Origin: Gigantopelta aegis
Taxonomy: Eukaryota > Mollusca > Gastropoda > Neomphalida > Peltospiridae
Direction of reading: 5' to 3'
Assembly: GCF_016097555.1 (NCBI RefSeq)
Contig: NC_054702.1
Coordinates: 88,210,102-88,274,101 of the forward strand
Length of the DNA stretch: 64,000 bases
A model generated the notes under the pieces. That model did not search any database, was not told the DNA's origin, and saw only the letters and a list, made by a program, of their open reading frames with translations. This document shows, piece after piece, positions 8,636 through 52,625 of this stretch; the stretch's first letter is position 1; every line of letters begins with the position of its first letter. Both the position numbers and the translations under genes were made by a program.

Positions 8636-31682
<23,047 letters not shown>

Positions 31683-34532: not shown

Positions 34533-34933
34533 GACCGGCCTCGGTGGCGTCGTGGCAGGCCATCGGTCTACAGGCTGGTAGGTACTGGGTTCGGATCCCA
34601 GTCGAGGCATGGGATTTTTAATCGAGATACCGACTCCAAACCCTGAGTGAGTGCTCCGCAAGGCTCAATGGGTAGGTGTAAACCACTTGCACCGACCAGT
34701 GATCCATAACTGGTTCAACAAAGGCCATGGTTTGTGCTATCCTGCCTGTGGGAAGCGCAAATAAAAGATCCCTTGCTGCCTGTCGTAAAAAGAGTAGCCT
34801 ATGTGGCGACAGCGGGTTTCCTCTAAAAACGGTGTCAGAATGACCATATGTTTGACGTCCAATAGCCGATGATAAGATAAAAAATCAATGTGCTCTAGTG
34901 GCGTCGTTAAATAAAACAAACTTTACTTTACTT
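34533..34933 (+). mobile_element. tRNA-derived SINE, head B, full length, tail b
   Basis: Head B (GGCCTCGGTGGCGTCGTGGC, GGGTTCGGATCCC) with tail b (GTGCTCTAGTGGCGTCGTTA). Flanked by 12-bp identical repeats TCATATAGTGTT at 34521-34532 and 34934-34945. Confidence 0.95.
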
Positions 34934-43066: not shown

Positions 43067-43168
43067 TCACAATTCTGTTTCAGCAATAGTGTCTGTAAGT
43101 CTATACACCAGTTCTGCAGACGAAGGTGGGGAGTCGCTCAGCCAACAGGACTGGGCTGTTTCCAGCAA
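43067..43168 (-). CDS. 7TM-pseudokinase coding exon 5 (C-lobe end)
   Basis: Encodes LLETAQSCWLSDSPPSSAEL, VYRLTDTIAETEL and TGA. The CW-x2-S/D-x-P-x2-S pattern is the usual subdomain XI of kinases. Acceptor CTTTCAG at 43170-43169, phase 0. Confidence 0.78.
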   Translation of the reverse strand: MLETAQSCWLSDSPPSSAELVYRLTDTIAETEL

Positions 43169-43450
43169 CTGAAAGATAATATAGACTGACGACACACATT
43201 TATAAACTCTTTTTATTAATAACTCGAATTGTAAGAATAACAGCATAATAATAAATAAATAACTGACAACTGATTGTTAAGATACACACACGCGCGCGCG
43301 CACACACACATACATATATTTGTCATAAAAATAGGTAAGGATAAACATTTGGTCATAATGGCTATAAAACTAAATGTATCACATTGATTTACCAACATAT
43401 ATCAAATTTATAAGTATGTTGATCTGTGTATTAGCAATATTACTCGTATA

Positions 43451-43531
<81 letters not shown>

Positions 43532-43584
43532 ACACCTAGACAAACGCAATTATCTTTGCCAATAGTTGCTTATTTGACACAATA

Positions 43585-43641
<57 letters not shown>

Positions 43642-46600
43642 TCAAACACTTTTCTTTTTAAATATAAGTTTTTCCACATACAGTGTTTAATTAAATAAAG
43701 GAAGACTCTTTCTTAACATGGAAATTAATAATACTAAATGAGCTTTTTTTATGAAATATAGTCTAACAACCTTGTTAACATGTACGATGGAATAACCATA
43801 ATAACATACTAATGCGTTTATAATACATTATTGGCTCTAAGGAATAGGTAGTTGACAATTACCTGATTACCGATAGTACCAAATCTCCCAGCATGTTGAA
43901 GTTTTGATTTCATCACTTCAAAGTTCACACTTCTCGCTGGCAACAATTCTTCAAAGTTTACAAATGAAATTTTAGATGACAGATGCTGACAGTACCTCAC
44001 GTGCTCCACACTCATTCCCTTCAAGAGTGGAACATTCACAGTTCCTGAATTATTTGAAGGCACTTGACCTTCCGATAAAGTTCTCAGTTGTTGGATTGTC
44101 TTTTCATCCAGTCCAAAAATTGGGTCTCTCAGGTAAGGCATATGATTGTCATTGGAATTATTTTGCTGGGTGAACATTTTGTCTATAGCCATCTCGGCGT
44201 CCACGAGAGGATAATTAGAAAAAGGTTTATCATTCCTACGACTGTCTTTGTCAAAGTGTTTGTCATGTTGTCGATTTGGTAAAGACTGACCTCTATCTGT
44301 ATCCAATATTGCCCTTGTTTCGTCTGCAGATGATTCACCCGTTATCTCATCAGGGAGTTCACGTATTATTTCATCTAGAACGTCTGCATTAGACTTTCTT
44401 CTTTTGGTTTGCATTCGACTGGGATGGAAGTCCATAGGCGTTTCATATTGATGGAATCTGTTGATAGACCCCTTTTGAGAATACCGTCCTTCTGACTGTG
44501 TTTTAGAACTCTCAGTATCACTGTTGATAAAAGGCATCTGTGATTCAAGACCCTGGAATAGAACCTCATCCTCTGAATCCCATTCTTCTTCCTCATCCTC
44601 TTCCTCCTCTTCAATAATCTCTGCTGTCGACTCCATCACCGAATCTCTATCTGTTTCAGAATGTTCTGACGCTGAAACTACAGAAACACGCAGAGGAACA
44701 CCACGGGTTATAAGCTCTTTGTAACGTTTCATGTTTCTTTTCCACTGAATTCTCTCTTTTGAACGAGTCTTTCGCACAGGCTTAATATTTATTCCTTTTT
44801 TCGTATTGCTCTCCAACCTACCAGAGGGATATTGTTGATCAGGACCAATGATGTCACTTTCAGCTGTTCGAAAGAAGTTATCTTTGCGAGAATGTTGCGG
44901 TGTCCGTTCACACGATGAGAACGAGTTATCAGTACAGGATTGTGGATATATGGGCTGTGTGTGCATTCCTGCAGTGGGAGACACAGAATACTGACAACTG
45001 CAAGCTTCGTCAGTTGGACAGGAGCAAGTATGGTCGTCAATTTCCAACTCCTGTAATGACCCATCATCACTTTTCACAGATCCACTGTCAAAACCACTGT
45101 CAAATTTCACATCCTTTCTAGGACTCACTTGAATTTTGTGCACAGGAATGTCATATTCTGGTTCATGTTCTGTAACATACCCATCATGTTTTCCATGATC
45201 TGAGGAATAAGCTTGTGACGACAATGACGTCAGTTCTCCACTGGTCAAAGACGTGGACTGCTGTGTACGGGGGTTGTTGCGGAAATAACTACTAAAACTA
45301 TCATTGCTGCTGAAACTGGAAAACTTCCCAACATTATTTCCAGCTGCTTGAACAGTCTTATCTGGAGAATTGGTTTGCTGACTAAATTCACACGATTCCT
45401 CCTTATTTTGATGGACGTTGCCACCATTCTCGTGAATGACATTAGCTGACTGTTTACGTGATGCATATTTCCTTTCTACGTCACTAGCTGACTTTCCCCG
45501 GTCTTTATCGACTGCAGTAGCAGGTCGTTGTAGCTGACGAGTTAGCACAGTTCTTGCTTTGTTTTTCTTAATACTCGTGGCTTGTGCCGTTTGAGGTCTG
45601 TGAGGGACATATGCAGTTGATGGACGAGATGCATTCATTTTGGCTGATGAGGGTACTGAAGTTTTAGGTCTCACTGGCGTACTGGCATGATCAACGTTAG
45701 GCATTCCTGACTCATAACCTTGCCTATAGGCATGGCTCTTTTGCGCAGATGCATTACTTGGCCTCATTTGACCGTTACTTGAATCAGGGATCAGTCTGTT
45801 GTAGCCAGGTCTACCTCCCTTCGCCACAATCATATCCCTAAGCATTGGTTTCATTCTTTCATCATAGCACTCAATGAGGTACTGTTTTCGTTTTGCTTCT
45901 CGAACAAGCCATAACTCTTTCAGACTTGGTCCAGATGTCTGTGTGTCGTCTGCCATGCCAGGCAAAATTTCTTCCTGTGATTTCACTAACAGTGCAGACG
46001 GCGAACAGCACCTTCTGTCATGATCGCCATAACTATTCATTGGTCTGTTAATTCCAGACGAATTGTATATTGTGCGTTGGTCTTCTGAGGCACTTTTATG
46101 CATTGACCTAGGTTCGAACATTTGTCCCCGTGGACCACTCTCGGCTGCTTCTGTAGGAGTAAACTTATGATCGTGATTTAACCCTGACGTGTTTTGAAAA
46201 CCCCTGCCTGGAGCTCCCATTTTCCCATAGCTTCTTTCTATTTCCTCAGCTATTTCTTCAATTTCTTCATAGTTATGATCTCCAAGTGAAGTCCCTTTAA
46301 AAATGGATTCTTGCGGAAAGCTATATGATTTATGTACAGGTCCTGAAGCCTGTCTGTTGTAATCTGCTGGATCTAGTCTAGGTGACTGAAACGAAGTCTG
46401 AGGGTAATCCACATAATCGTGAGATGAAGGACCATCTTGCCAAGGCGTCGCACTTTCGTGACTTATAGGTGGTGACTCTGGTATTTTCTGTGGAATATCA
46501 GGAGCCCTTCTTTTCTTATGAGACATGATACTTGTTCGAGATCCCATGCCATTAGATCTGGATAACTGTACTGAACCAGGATTATTCAATTCTGAAGTTG

Positions 46601-49600
46601 ATGAGTTTTCACGATTGTCCTTTGAGGAGACATTAGGTTTTCTAAATGCTTCATGCCCTAAGGTCTGATTTAATTCAGTTGTCTGTGGGCTCTGGCCCTT
46701 TACATTTATTAATGTCCCGAAGTAAGGAATGTCATCTACACTGTTTTCGGATGCTGATTCAAGATAACCATAATTTCTTGGAGTTTCTGTACAAAACATG
46801 TCTTGAAGATTAGCTTTGTCATGACTGTTTCCTTGCGTATGGAAATGGATGTATTCTAGCCTTTTGTCACAGACAAGACCAATGATCTCTAGTGTCACAA
46901 GGGCAAATGCTCTGATGTCTGGAAGGAAAAACTGCTTCTTGTTGCTGACGCTCGACATGACACCACTCTGAAGTGAACCACATATCTGGGCATTCTCAAA
47001 ATCTCCAATAGCTGCTCTCAGAACCAGGCGCTGTGAAAAATAAACATGAAAATATCAAGCCTAATCTATAAAAGATGAATGTAGTGAACAACAAAAGGTA
47101 AAATGGAAAAAGAAAATTGTTTTTTTAAGATTGATCATGATTAATATTTTTCGTTTACATAATAATTTAAAAGCAGATTTTGAACATAATTTCATGTGGT
47201 ATAATATATCTAATAATAAAATAACACAGATGGAAATGCTTTTAGAAACAGTGTATATACTATCGATATTGGTCCTCACAATATGTTAATAACTTAAAAG
47301 TTGTTTCTTAATTAGACCCATTAAATAGTGTACATCATGAAATATTTATAGTTTCATTATTAAACAGATGCTGAATTAAAACGATTTCGATCATATGCAC
47401 AGATTCTATCAAATGTTTTAGGTATAGTGTGTGTGTGTGTTTAGTTTTTTTAATGCAATGATTATTTGGTCAGTGACCCTGTGTATGACAAAATGTTAAA
47501 CTGATACTATTTTTCAACCTTTACTCCTGGCAATAGGATTGGAAATTGTTGCCCTCGATCCAATCTGCCAATTCTTTAGAAATGATAAAGCTATTACCTC
47601 AAGTGAACCTTTGAGATACACGGTAGCAGACGAGAGGTTCTGGTGAAGGATGTTCTGTTCATGCAGACACGACAGCCCCTCGGCAATGTCGTGAATAATG
47701 GTTTTCTGACACGGCTCGGGGAGGGGAATGTCTAGATGAGCCAGGAAATCCCCCAGAGTGCCACTGCTCGTCCATTCCATGCATATGAGTCTGGGAAAAT
47801 TAATTATAATATTTAATATAATATCAGAGGTGGAAAATGTAATTTTAATATATTAATATGGTATCAGACAAACAAGAGTTATTCGATATTAAGATGAGCC
47901 ACCAGTGGAAAAGCTTCACTGTGTAACACAATCAAGTTTAAACGATATCAGATCTCCTTAAACGTGAACAAATACTGGTACATATTATTATTATTATTAT
48001 TATTATTATTTGTTTTTAAATGGTAACCGTTTTTAAAGCAGACTCTCAAACTCTCTTATGATACACGACGTCCTGCTATAAAATTGACTAATAAAAGGAG
48101 AATTATTAACAAGTTTTAAACCATACTGGAAATCTCCCCCCCCCCCCCACACACACACACACTAATTTTATTATTTAGGAAGTACGTTTGTTACAAAACT
48201 GCTCCCTATTATCTCAGTCAGCAAAATAGTGGATTGTCTCCTGGATGGTTGCTGGTTCAAGTCCTTTGACCGGAGTGTAAGTTAGTTGCATACAAACCTG
48301 GAATCGCTGGTGACGATTTCTCCTGTAATCAGCATCATGGTGTCATAGTAGGGGTTGTTGTTGTTTGTCCACAGACACTGCAAGAGGCTGGCGTTCTGAA
48401 TCTTCCTCATCATCCCCAGGATGACGATCTCTTGGGCCCACGACTTCAAGTTATCCAAGGAGTAGACTTTCAACAAGCCGTGCTTCAACATACCCTTCCC
48501 AACAGACCACGTAGCCTTCATGCGTAGTTTTCCTGGCCCCTGTAAACAGTATAGATGATTTATTACCCACTGCAAATGTACTTGACATCACCAGTCTGCA
48601 GCAGTTTAATTGTAATAGTACATACAACACTATACGGGTATTTGGAGCAGACACCAGCGGAAAGGAAGAAGGAAATGTTTTATTTAACGACGCACTCAAC
48701 ACATTTTATTTTACGTTATATGGCGTCGGACATACGGTTAAGGACCACACAGATATTGAGGGAGGAAACCCGCTGTCACCACTTCATGGGTTACTCTTTT
48801 CGATTAGCAATAAGGGTTTTACATGCACCATCCAACAGAGAGGATAGCACATACCACGGCCTTTGATGTACCAGTCGTGGTGCACTGGCTGGATCGAGAA
48901 ATAGCCCAATGCGCCCACCGACGGGGATCGATCCCAAACCGACCGCGCATCAAGCGAGCGCTTTACCACTGGGCTACACCTCGCCCCAGACACCAGCGGG
49001 TCTGATCTATGCTTAGCCATTTGAGTTATATTCTGGCATTTTTCATGAAATTGTTAGTAACCTAGTGCATATTCAAATACATATGCTTAAAGTGTCAGAA
49101 TTCATATAGCATTTAACCATAACGTTCTGATATCTCAACAAGGCATTTCATAACCGATACTATACTAAGTTAGTGATAATTGTATATAGTCGAAATTAAA
49201 ATAATGAAGCCACAACAGAAATCGAAATCAAAAGCATACTCGCACTTTGAAATACCGGTATCACTCCCACCTCACGATAAATAATATATCAGTACTTGAT
49301 ATTGTGAATATTAGACTTTATTTCATAATCATGTATGACAAAGGTGTCGAAAAATGTAGACCTATATGGATCTAAAATAGAAATCGAATTGTGTTTTATG
49401 TTAAATACATCATCTTTGTTATAAAATCCAAATAACCGTTTGAAACACTAACACCCTCCCCCCAAAAGAAGAAGAAAACCAAACGAGAGAAAAACGGAGA
49501 AAAACAAAACTAGAACAGTATTTGCATTGCCTGATATGTTGCTTCTTAGTTTCATGTTATTAGAAACCTTGAAACACCCTATTTTTCAGTAAGCTTTGCA

Positions 49601-51601
49601 TGCGACTATTCGTGCGAATGGCGACAATCGTGACATCAGATAGCACTTACACCGTTTTGAATCACGTGTTCAATATATCAAATTTCGAGCGAAGCAAAGA
49701 AATATTACTATTATCTTCTAATCTCAAGCATATTGAAAGAAGGACAACTAAGTTTAACTTACATGTATAAGATATACAATATGTTAAATGATTTGGTCAT
49801 CAATGTAGGCAATAACTGTTTACTGGTTAAGCACAGACAGTAAGGGTATTCTAGTTATCGTGCATTTAAAAATGTGTAATTAAAGTTTATATGGCGATTT
49901 AGCTACTTACGTAATTCAATATCTTCACAACACTGGTGCAATTATACACAAATCCAACCAGTTGTTTGGTGATAACAGGATTCATGACAGCAATGAATGA
50001 CACGGATTTTACAGCATTCAACCCACAAAATCTATATACAATTAAACCATAACCAACACATTTGTCTGTATATAGTCCAGATGTCATGTTTGACATCAAT
50101 CTGTTATTGTAGGCACGCCAACCAGTCAAAGGAATAACCATCAGTAATCAGAACCGTACGAATAAGGACAGTATCTAAAACATCGAAAACCCATTTTCTT
50201 CCCAAGTTAATAACTGTGACTGTTTTGCTTCATTCTGGTGTCTCATACTATGGTAGATTAGCGTAGATACTCACATGTGCATTATGCTTCACTAACTAAT
50301 ATGAAGTGATTAATGACTGCATAGTGTTTATGGATTTTAGATGCCTGCTAGACATGTTTTTATATATTCTGACAAACGATAATGTGATTCTTTAAGCCTG
50401 ACGTTGCGCCACATTTAAATGAAACTCATTCTCAATAACATTTGTCACCAAACACGACAAACATTATTTTAAATATAATTGTAAATAATGTATAAAAGAT
50501 CGACCAACCGGTTTTAGTAATTCTCAAGCAACTTTTGCCTCGGTGTAAACTATAAAATTACAATAATCAAAATATACAGTACGCACCATCACAGTGAAAT
50601 TCATCTTTCAACAAAATGCTAAGATATTTTATAAGCACCATTTCTGTTTAATTACTCACCTCTATTTTTAAAAGTTCCAACTTTTTCAGTTTCTGGTGAG
50701 GTTCCTTTGCTTGCTGTTTGGTCTTGCAGCACAGGGTACTCCACAAAATCGTCTGAATATTGCTGAATATCGCGTGCAGCGTGATCAGAACGCTGAAGGC
50801 AATGATAATAATCCACTGAGGCACGACGCGTTTTGCTGAATTCGTGTACAAGACTATCGTGACCATGAAGAGAACCACGATCCATATCATTTGCTCCAGC
50901 AGGAGGAACTTCTGGAAAGTCTTACCCTGACCCAGCATCATCAGTTGCCAGATGTTAGGCGAGGACGCGTGTATCCGACCCTTGGCGCTCTTCCACAGTC
51001 GTAGAGCACACACCAGAGATAGGACCATGGACGATATGACCATCATCCAGAACAGGACCACAATGACGGCTCCGTATCCAGCCCCAGATGTGTTGGCGTT
51101 TTGTAGTGGAAAACAAGCTATGGGGAACGGGGTCTGGTGCTCGAAATATGTCATTGGGAGTAACGGGATGAATGATAAAAAAATAAATATTATCTTCTGG
51201 GGGATAATCAGTGTAGGGATGGGCCATTTCCGGTAACTGGAGTATCCAGACAGCCTCTCTGGATTCTGGATGAACATGAGAATGATCGCAGACAGGAAAT
51301 AAGTGAACAGGGTGTCGAGCACTCCGAACAGGATAAAGAAACCAGCACTATGGCAGAAATTGTTGATTCCGTTGTTGACGTAGGTAAGAAGGAGAGCCAA
51401 TCCCAGACCGAGAAACAAGTGTGAGATATCCAGCAGGGCTATGATGTATTTCCAAGTATCAGGAAGTGCGAATTTTAGTAAAAGTTTTGCTGCTATAGAA
51501 ATCATGTTGGCCAGCGTTCCGATCGCCGTGAGGGTAATCATTACTGAAACCAGGGCGCCCGTCGATTCTCCAAGAAACGGATCCGTTGTGTTAGACGCCA
51601 T
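43067..51601 (-). CDS. Seven-helix membrane protein fused to a pseudokinase with a giant C-lobe insertion (1548 aa, 5 coding exons)
   Basis: Spliced model: 51601-50660, 48539-48298, 47790-47598, 47030-43863, 43168-43067. All joins are GT-AG and phases match (0, 2, 0, 0). The start ATG is the first Met after an in-frame TGA, with no acceptor between. Residues 1-314 carry seven hydrophobic helices (about 16-42, 51-75, 84-110, 130-152, 177-202, 232-253, 262-287), an NTT glycosylation site, and C83/C163 placed like the TM3-ECL2 disulfide. No DRY, CWxP or NPxxY is present. Residues 315-515 look like a kinase: LLKVY (K338), E351 in SWAQEIVILGMM, hinge RLICMEWTSSGTLGDFL, HQN (444-446) for HRD and DFE (469-471) for DFG. 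A Ser-rich insert of about 950 residues follows, then CWLSDSPPSSAELVYRL and the stop. I infer a membrane receptor-like pseudokinase; ligand and partners are unknown. Two separate genes remain possible. Confidence 0.72.
43284..43312. repeat. (AC)n/(GC) microsatellite
   Basis: Short mixed ACACAC/GCGCGC tract in the last intron of the 7TM-pseudokinase gene. Confidence 0.85.
43456..43530. repeat. (CT)n microsatellite
   Basis: About 75 bp of CT repeat. Confidence 0.98.
43586..43640. repeat. (TA)n microsatellite
   Basis: About 54 bp of TA repeat. Confidence 0.97.
43863..47030 (-). CDS. 7TM-pseudokinase coding exon 4 (1056 codons: activation-segment remnant, insertion, C-lobe part)
   Basis: Starts RLVLRAAIGDFENAQICG (DFG to DFE) and FFLPDIRAFALVTLEIIGL (alpha-F-like). 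A long Ser/polar insertion follows: SLKELWLVREAKRKQYLIEC helix, RPKTS/RPSTA/RPQTA/RPATA cluster, CSCPTDEACSCQ, a basic patch and an acidic run near residue 1270. It ends VMKSKLQHAGRFGTIGNQ. An open frame of 3.2 kb in AT-rich DNA cannot be chance. Acceptor TTCACAG, donor CAG|GTAATT. Confidence 0.88.
47598..47790 (-). CDS. 7TM-pseudokinase coding exon 3 (hinge and catalytic-loop remnant)
   Basis: Encodes LICMEWTSSGTLGDFLAHLD, DIAEGLSCLHEQNILHQNLS and SATVYLKGSLE. The kinase pattern hinge, alpha-E, HRD-loop is clear, but HRD-x4-N is replaced by HQN-x4-T. Acceptor TTCCCAG, donor GAG|GTAATA. Confidence 0.85.
48298..48539 (-). CDS. 7TM-pseudokinase coding exon 2 (kinase N-lobe)
   Basis: Encodes GPGKLRMKATWSVGKGMLKH, GLLKVYSLDN, SWAQEIVILGMMRKIQ and LITGEIVTSDS. 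Acceptor TTTACAG at 48541-48540 (phase 0), donor CCAG|GTTTGT (phase 2). It has a putative VAIK-like Lys and an alpha-C Glu. Confidence 0.82.
48661..48987 (-). mobile_element. tRNA-derived SINE, head A, full length with target duplication
   Basis: A minus-strand SINE in coding intron 1 of the 7TM-pseudokinase gene. The head contains GTAGCCCAGTGGTAAAGCGC and box B-like GGGATCGATCCC. Flanked by identical 12-bp repeats AGACACCAGCGG at 48649-48660 and 48988-48999. Confidence 0.95.
49000..50659. other. Rest of coding intron 1, 7TM-pseudokinase gene
   Basis: AT-rich. An 80-codon minus-strand frame at 49899-50141 ends in a consensus donor (TAC|GTAAGT), but I find no in-frame acceptor joining it to exon 1. 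It is unassigned. Confidence 0.5.
50660..51601 (-). CDS. 7TM-pseudokinase coding exon 1 (membrane domain)
   Basis: Encodes MASNTTDPFLGESTGALVSV to KLKKLELLKIE: a short ectodomain, seven helices and a basic/helical linker. The donor GAG|GTGAGT at 50659-50658 is a strong consensus. Reading through it adds only VSN before a stop. Confidence 0.85.
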
Positions 51602-51977: not shown

Positions 51978-52625
51978 TAGAACTTACTGTTCCAGACAAT
52001 TTTAAAATATAAAAAATACCATATTTGTAGTGTGTAGTGGTGTATTCATTCTTGCGTCAAACAGAACTATTGGAACTTACTGTTCCAGACAACTTTAAAA
52101 TATAAAAACTTCCATATTTGTAGTGTGTAGTGGTGTATTCATTCTTGCGTCAAACAGAACTATTGGGATTTACTGTTCCAGACAATTTTAAAATATAAAA
52201 ACCACATTATTTGTAGTGTGTAGTGGTGTATTCATTCTTGCGTCAAACAGAACTATTGGGACTTACTGTTCCAGACAACTTTAAAATATAAAAACGACCA
52301 TATTTGTAGTGTGTAGTGGTGTATTTTTTCTTGCGTCAAACAGAACTATTGGGACTTACTGTTCCAGACAACTTTAAAATATAAAAACTACCATATTTGT
52401 AGTGTGTAGTGGTATATTCATTCTTGCGTCAAACAGAACTATTGGGACTTACTGTTCCAGACAACTTTAAAATATAAAAACTACCATATTAGTAGTGTGT
52501 AGTGGTGTATTCATTCTTGCGTCAAACAGAACTATTGGGACTTACTGTTCGAGACAATTTTAAAATATAAAAACTACCATATTTGTAGTGTGTAGTGGTG
52601 TATTCTTGCGTCAAACAGAACTATT
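51978..52625. repeat. 93-bp tandem array, 7 copies, upstream of the 7TM-pseudokinase gene
   Basis: The motif GTTCCAGACAA starts at 51989, 52082, 52175, 52268, 52361, 52454 and (as GTTCGAGACAA) 52547, an exact 93-bp period with few substitutions. On the minus strand each unit reads GGAACAGTAAGT, a donor-like sequence (one copy has GTAAAT). Confidence 0.96.

Follow-up and report, generated by a model that had tools for sequence, protein, structure and literature searches.

Receptor guanylyl cyclases and HER3 are membrane receptors in which one membrane helix is combined with a cytoplasmic pseudokinase for allosteric control. Chains that join an N-terminal seven-helix domain to a C-terminal kinase have been described as fusions of G-protein-coupled receptors (GPCRs) with tyrosine kinases (TKs) or tyrosine kinase-like (TKL) kinases, namely the GPCR-TK and GPCR-TKL/K fusions of a 2025 survey (PMC12716839), and GPCR-TKL bigrams that likewise consist of seven helices and a TKL-type kinase are reported from oomycetes and amoebozoans in the parts of a second paper used here (PMC5784254). 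In the sections of the survey on which we draw, GPCR-TKs are confined to choanoflagellates and, among animals, sponges, and its authors state that, to their knowledge, no GPCR-kinase fusion has been functionally characterised (PMC12716839). Here we describe a gene of the peltospirid gastropod Gigantopelta aegis that lies in a stretch of 64,000 nucleotides (the window; assembly GCF_016097555.1, NC_054702.1:88,210,102-88,274,101, forward strand), positions of which are used as coordinates throughout. We consider it probable that this gene encodes a single-chain, receptor-like membrane protein in which a seven-helix bundle is joined to a pseudokinase.

Five minus-strand exons (51601-50660, 48539-48298, 47790-47598, 47030-43863 and 43168-43067) combine into a single open frame of 1548 amino acids (aa), and all four introns have a GT donor and an AG acceptor. 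The junction between exons 1 and 2 (50660/48539) is in phase 0 on both sides, with the donor GAG/GTGAGT and the acceptor TTTACAG/GG. The matching exon phases of the original prediction were thereby borne out, and the resulting protein is identical to that of the NCBI model LOC121371340 (100% identity, 100% coverage; P0003 among the relatives below). The gene model is thus already public, though solely as an 'uncharacterized protein', and a literature search found no mention of the locus name. Exon 1 encodes the seven-helix domain (residues 1-314), with the N-terminus predicted to lie outside and a basic linker (KEPHQKLKKLELLKIE) at the end; a search of the 1.149 Gb assembly with this exon gives a single match at E up to 0.001. 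Exon 2 (residues 315-394 and two further bases) encodes the N-lobe of the kinase and exon 3 its middle part, including an altered catalytic loop. The activation segment of the putative pseudokinase comes from exon 4, as do helix F and the Ser-rich insert after it, and exon 5 encodes the probable last kinase helices (CWLSDSPPSSAELVYRL) and the C-terminus.

Intron 1 (48540-50659, minus strand, 2120 bp) contains four AATAAA motifs and a tRNA-like repeat. The latter, at 48880-49000 on the minus strand (GTAGCCCAGTGGTAAAGCGCTCGC ... GGTTTGGGATCGATCCC), received no call from ARAGORN and bears what we take to be a resemblance to a tRNA-derived short interspersed element. Pure dinucleotide runs are present in intron 4 (CT at 43455-43530, 38 units; AT at 43587-43639, 26.5 units), and seven tandem copies of a 93-bp unit (94% matches) occupy 51982-52625, with about 380 bp between this array and the start codon, which lies downstream of it.

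A homologue search of a 5.8-billion-protein collection gave 30 records (P0003-P0032), including that of the window protein. These represent 25 named mollusc species, comprising 11 gastropods and 14 bivalves (Mytilus edulis occurs twice), together with four Logan records; the named species include no cephalopods or chitons. From these same sequences we derived a pattern across the junction, consisting of a KLEL-like linker, an acidic residue and then a GKLRM-like motif. It is present in 28 of the 30 records, P0031 and P0032 being without the stretch concerned. Rather than being encoded by separate genes in its homologues, an outcome that the original prediction had named as fatal to a fusion, the two halves are therefore joined. 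Three records, P0014, P0018 and P0028 (1831, 1900 and 1846 aa), derive from contigs of 5999, 6493 and 6846 bases and carry the junction in one open frame; the listed start of P0028 falls after helix 3. Because the junction has an intron in G. aegis, yet the frame is uninterrupted on these 6-7 kb contigs, the three records point to spliced transcripts, with a retrocopy as the alternative, and the presence of both halves in a single frame on transcript-sized contigs speaks for one transcript. As judged from this set of sequences, the fusion is genuine and did not arise through merged annotations. A 16-row profile search for non-molluscan homologues produced 28 hits, each already known, and no other phylum, among 7999 candidates sharing most words and within a length window that omits short and very long proteins; as it failed to recover P0032 and even P0024, which was among the query rows, this search cannot show absence from other phyla.

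Hydropathy and loop composition were examined in the 24 records with a whole seven-helix region, this being missing or broken in P0025, P0028, P0029, P0030, P0031 and P0032. The averaged profile has peaks at residues 21-36, 60-73, 89-106, 132-146, 179-198, 235-250 and 266-283, and elsewhere within residues 1-560 the threshold is exceeded by no more than a two-residue blip at 502-503. Exon 1 thus has the makeup of a complete seven-helix domain that ends at a consensus donor in phase 0, as had been proposed. With loop limits set by us, the intracellular loops average 2.3-5.3 Lys plus Arg residues and at most 0.6 acidic residues, and the extracellular loops are net acidic, so that a predicted topology with the N-terminus outside and the C-terminus inside fits the positive-inside pattern. 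Residues C83, C163, W185, P114 and C291 are present in all 24 records, an aspartate in helix 2 is found in 22 and an N-terminal glycosylation sequon in 16, and a cluster of cysteines follows helix 7. A disulphide between helix 3 and loop 2, a feature of class A, and an aspartate in helix 2 are hallmarks of GPCRs, and we infer that C83 and C163 pair at the corresponding position.

This layout was not matched by any family assignment. None of the 12 members scanned matched a 7tm family of Pfam (listing at E up to 10, from which the program dropped most matches above about 0.1), and a known GPCR family was rejected for want of a match to either the single sequence or a 12-row profile. Nor did that profile match any chain among solved structures, a search with the single sequence being likewise without a match. 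The sole Pfam hit below 0.001 among the 12 members, MASE1 (E 0.00088), occurs in one of them and was treated as chance. In the 24 relatives, a QNPxK-like motif replaces the class A motif DRY, and CWxP and NPxxY are absent. As there is neither a family nor a structure match and these three motifs are missing, coupling to G proteins is doubtful and another role possible. We therefore describe this half as GPCR-like by predicted layout and of no known class by sequence; 'GPCR' is not proven.

The same observations favour an alternative, in which the seven-helix part belongs to another kind of membrane protein (transporter, channel or trafficking protein) and serves to anchor a scaffold pseudokinase at a membrane. 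This partly overlaps with the receptor-pseudokinase reading, from which it differs in the role of the bundle alone. It draws on the lack of a GPCR match in 12 of 12 members and of any solved structure matching their profile, and on the missing class A motifs, but the number of helices and the charge pattern fit a GPCR-like bundle, as do the invariant cysteine pair at the place of the helix-3/loop-2 disulphide, the helix-2 aspartate and the cysteine cluster after helix 7. We consider this alternative rather unlikely, and retain the receptor-like reading for the bundle.

The second half has a protein kinase fold, the window protein matching PF07714 above the curated cut-off of that family (E 5.9e-07) and PF00069 below the cut-off of its own (E 6.5e-06), and all 16 of the records scanned match both families at E up to 1. 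Matches to PF06293 (Kdo kinase) in nine of the 16 were taken to reflect the shared kinase fold and set aside as an assignment. The best solved structure for the single sequence is TYK2 (E 0.00011). For a profile of 16 relatives it is LIMK1 (E 2e-06), followed by LIMK2, PLK4, LRRK2 and ULK2/3 and, at lower rank, by MLKL and RAF. LIMK1/2, LRRK2 and MLKL belong to the TKL group, their matches being weak and spanning about 50-60 positions, whereas PLK4 and ULK2/3 do not. Unlike the active kinases LIMK and LRRK2, MLKL is a pseudokinase, but it is no membrane-spanning receptor. A TKL origin of the kinase is thus likely on sequence similarity, but not settled.

Kinases are commonly described by the HRD and DFG motifs, the beta-3 lysine and helix C, and these were counted in 29 records, P0032 having no kinase part. 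In place of HRD the window protein has HQN (residues 444-446, 47637-47645, minus strand), and the aspartate is absent from all 29 proteins, being replaced by Asn in 27, Lys in one and Arg in one. The asparagine of the catalytic loop is replaced by Ala, Cys, Ser or Thr in 29/29, and DFG reads DFE in 29/29 (residues 469-471, 46995-47003, minus strand), with its aspartate always kept. No Gly-rich loop was seen in the N-lobe. The lysine of the ATP site in strand beta-3 (K338) is retained in 28 records, with one gap, and the helix-C glutamate (E351) in 29/29. The 'dead kinase' of the original prediction was therefore upheld as regards the lost HRD aspartate and the altered DFG, but has to be softened in view of the ATP-site lysine, helix-C glutamate and DFG aspartate that are kept. 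By the usual definition, loss of the Lys, the HRD Asp or the DFG Asp, the domain qualifies as a pseudokinase through its HRD Asp, and it has the look of one in which nucleotide binding may persist. No other part of the protein is as well conserved. In 25 of the 30 records the majority residue accounts for a mean fraction of 0.67-0.81 across residues 301-510 versus 0.34-0.62 across residues 1-300, and the mean pairwise difference is 0.33 for the kinase half versus 0.59 for the seven-helix half.

The near-complete retention of the ATP-site lysine, helix-C glutamate and DFG aspartate would also be compatible with an unusual catalytic activity, and some kinases with an altered HRD, HER3 for example, keep weak activity. 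However, the combined loss of the HRD aspartate and catalytic-loop asparagine, the DFE in every protein and the lack of a visible Gly-rich loop make retained catalysis improbable, and we continue to treat the domain as a putative pseudokinase.

The collection also includes two open frames from other contigs that correspond to exon 1 only, P0001 (317 aa, 89% identity) and P0002 (324 aa, 42% identity). When aligned with the window frame, these are conserved up to the glutamate that precedes the donor, after which the three read Val-Ser-Asn, Val-Gly-Ser and Val-Ser-Leu-Leu-Val-Phe and end. The residues beyond the donor are thus few and unconserved, and start in each case with Val (GT codon). Because a GT-encoded Val directly after the conserved glutamate is what is expected at a donor, this alignment suggests that relatives of about 40% identity have an intron in the corresponding position. 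The kinase exon, for which the absence of a plausible start had been predicted, has M321 as its first in-frame Met, and this is Leu in many relatives. That gene-prediction software merged two neighbours, one a seven-helix gene of a single exon and the other encoding the kinase, is very improbable and was rejected on junction conservation: although the exon-1 frame has a stop of its own a few codons beyond the donor, and P0001 and P0002 are listed as whole proteins, the join motif recurs across the junction, the post-donor residues are unconserved and begin with Val, the join is carried by three transcript-sized contigs and no start codon is conserved in the kinase exon.

The insert after helix F, within the C-lobe, is Ser-rich, about 945 residues long and poorly conserved, with conserved islands, and its content of hydrophobic plus aromatic residues is 23% versus 41% in the kinase core. 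Beyond it, the segment encoded by exon 5 resembles the last kinase helices, which may close the kinase lobe. The split of the kinase domain, part of the original prediction, holds in the relatives: the flanking DIR and CW motifs were both found in 28 of the 30 records and lie 991-1435 residues apart. One of the islands, DSGFDS (residues 1103-1108, 45084-45101, minus strand), is exact in 24/30 proteins, with variants in Ruditapes (DSGFES), Physella (DSGFDT) and three caenogastropods (DSGFDEDS), and is lacking from the 984-aa record of Solemya; we take it to match the DSGxxS phosphodegron pattern read by beta-TrCP. The C-terminus is ETEL (43070-43081, minus strand), presumably a class I PDZ-ligand pattern, in 25/30 proteins and ETEV in two, the remainder being P0029 (TETL) and P0030 and P0032 (other ends).

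Separate maximum-likelihood trees were built for the two halves from 25 of the 30 records (P0028-P0032 were left out); both are unrooted, and P0014 and P0018 were labelled as bivalves from their position in earlier trees. In each tree a single branch divides the 14 bivalve-labelled rows from the 11 gastropod-labelled rows, with support of 100/100 and 100/99. Some inner branches conflict between the trees, for instance in the placement of Patella and Aplysia. Between the halves, pairwise distances are correlated with a rho of 0.78, a value inflated by shared ancestry. Since both half-trees separate the two classes, the fusion probably predates the gastropod-bivalve split, and one fusion before that split is the simplest reading of these sequences.

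The molluscan protein thus has, in a single chain, the seven-helix domain and kinase of the choanoflagellate and sponge GPCR-TK/TKL fusions. As far as the published descriptions drawn on here permit a comparison, it differs from those in the insert of about 1000 residues within the kinase and in the conserved C-terminal ETEL. A DEP domain is present in nearly half of the oomycete GPCR-TKL bigrams, according to the portions of that paper used here (PMC5784254), whereas Pfam scans of the window protein and 16 records gave no DEP match. With respect to receptor guanylyl cyclases and HER3, the difference lies in seven helices instead of one, and no cyclase domain was found in the 16 scanned records. 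LIMK1/2, LRRK2 and MLKL enter the comparison only as being among the best solved-structure matches of the kinase profile. The original prediction knew of no described animal family of this kind, and this agrees with what we found: a literature search, with most subscription papers outside its scope, returned no title or abstract on such a molluscan fusion, and the animal GPCR-TKs in the consulted sections of the survey are those of sponges. The word 'pseudokinase' is absent from the text of PMC12716839, and 'Mollus' occurs across PMC12716839 and PMC5784254 once in the reference list of one paper and nowhere in the other.

Several points weigh against a receptor-pseudokinase. Both the helix bundle and the closure of the kinase lobe by exon 5 are predictions from sequence, and for the bundle neither a GPCR family nor a solved structure gave a match, nor does it have the class A motifs. 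The kinase group is uncertain, with PF00069 below its cut-off and TYK2 as best structure for the single sequence versus LIMK1 for the profile, and a change of the HRD Asp to Asn is no proof that activity is nil. For many of the relatives, too, the record is a predicted gene model, P0012 being marked LOW QUALITY, and the four AATAAA motifs of intron 1 leave a short isoform with the seven helices only possible. On balance, we read these proteins as an undescribed molluscan receptor-pseudokinase family with a presumed role in signalling. We see about an even chance for the wider proposal, that they constitute a bilaterian class of receptors not described before, whose seven-helix bundle belongs to no known family and uses the built-in pseudokinase for signalling, either in place of a G protein or in addition to one, and which arose once before the gastropod-bivalve split and bears its own phosphodegron and PDZ anchor in the kinase insert and tail.

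The single chain, topology pattern, conserved basic linker, altered catalytic motifs and recurring insert and tail motifs can be read directly from the sequences, and a possible mechanism may be outlined as follows. The N-terminus would lie outside and the kinase would face the cytoplasm. A stimulus would alter the helix bundle, and the linker would relay this change to the pseudokinase, which may act as an allosteric docking platform and not as an enzyme. Phosphorylation of the insert by other kinases could control binding partners and, via the DSGFDS degron, turnover, and ETEL may anchor the complex to a PDZ scaffold. Such an arrangement would be the product of an old fusion, probably older than the gastropod-bivalve split, that has been maintained as an apparently single-copy gene.

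Elsewhere in the window, a 355-codon open frame at 15820-16884 matches Tc1-type transposase domains (DDE_3, E 2.5e-17; HTH_Tnp_Tc3_2, E 1.5e-10). An open frame on the plus strand at 19827-20201 matches the BACK domain (E 2.8e-05), and a gene of the BTB-BACK type is probably located there. Calls of tRNAs with an undefined anticodon at 24399-24470 and 34538-34609 are perhaps tRNA-derived repeats.

As the gene is conserved in snails, scallops, mussels and oysters, it could be studied in readily accessible species, for example Aplysia or Biomphalaria, each of which has a record. The recurring DSGFDS and ETEL motifs suggest partners that can be tested. Finally, because the catalytic aspartate is missing from 29 of 29 records, the family would allow a clean answer to the question whether seven-helix receptors can act directly through a pseudokinase.
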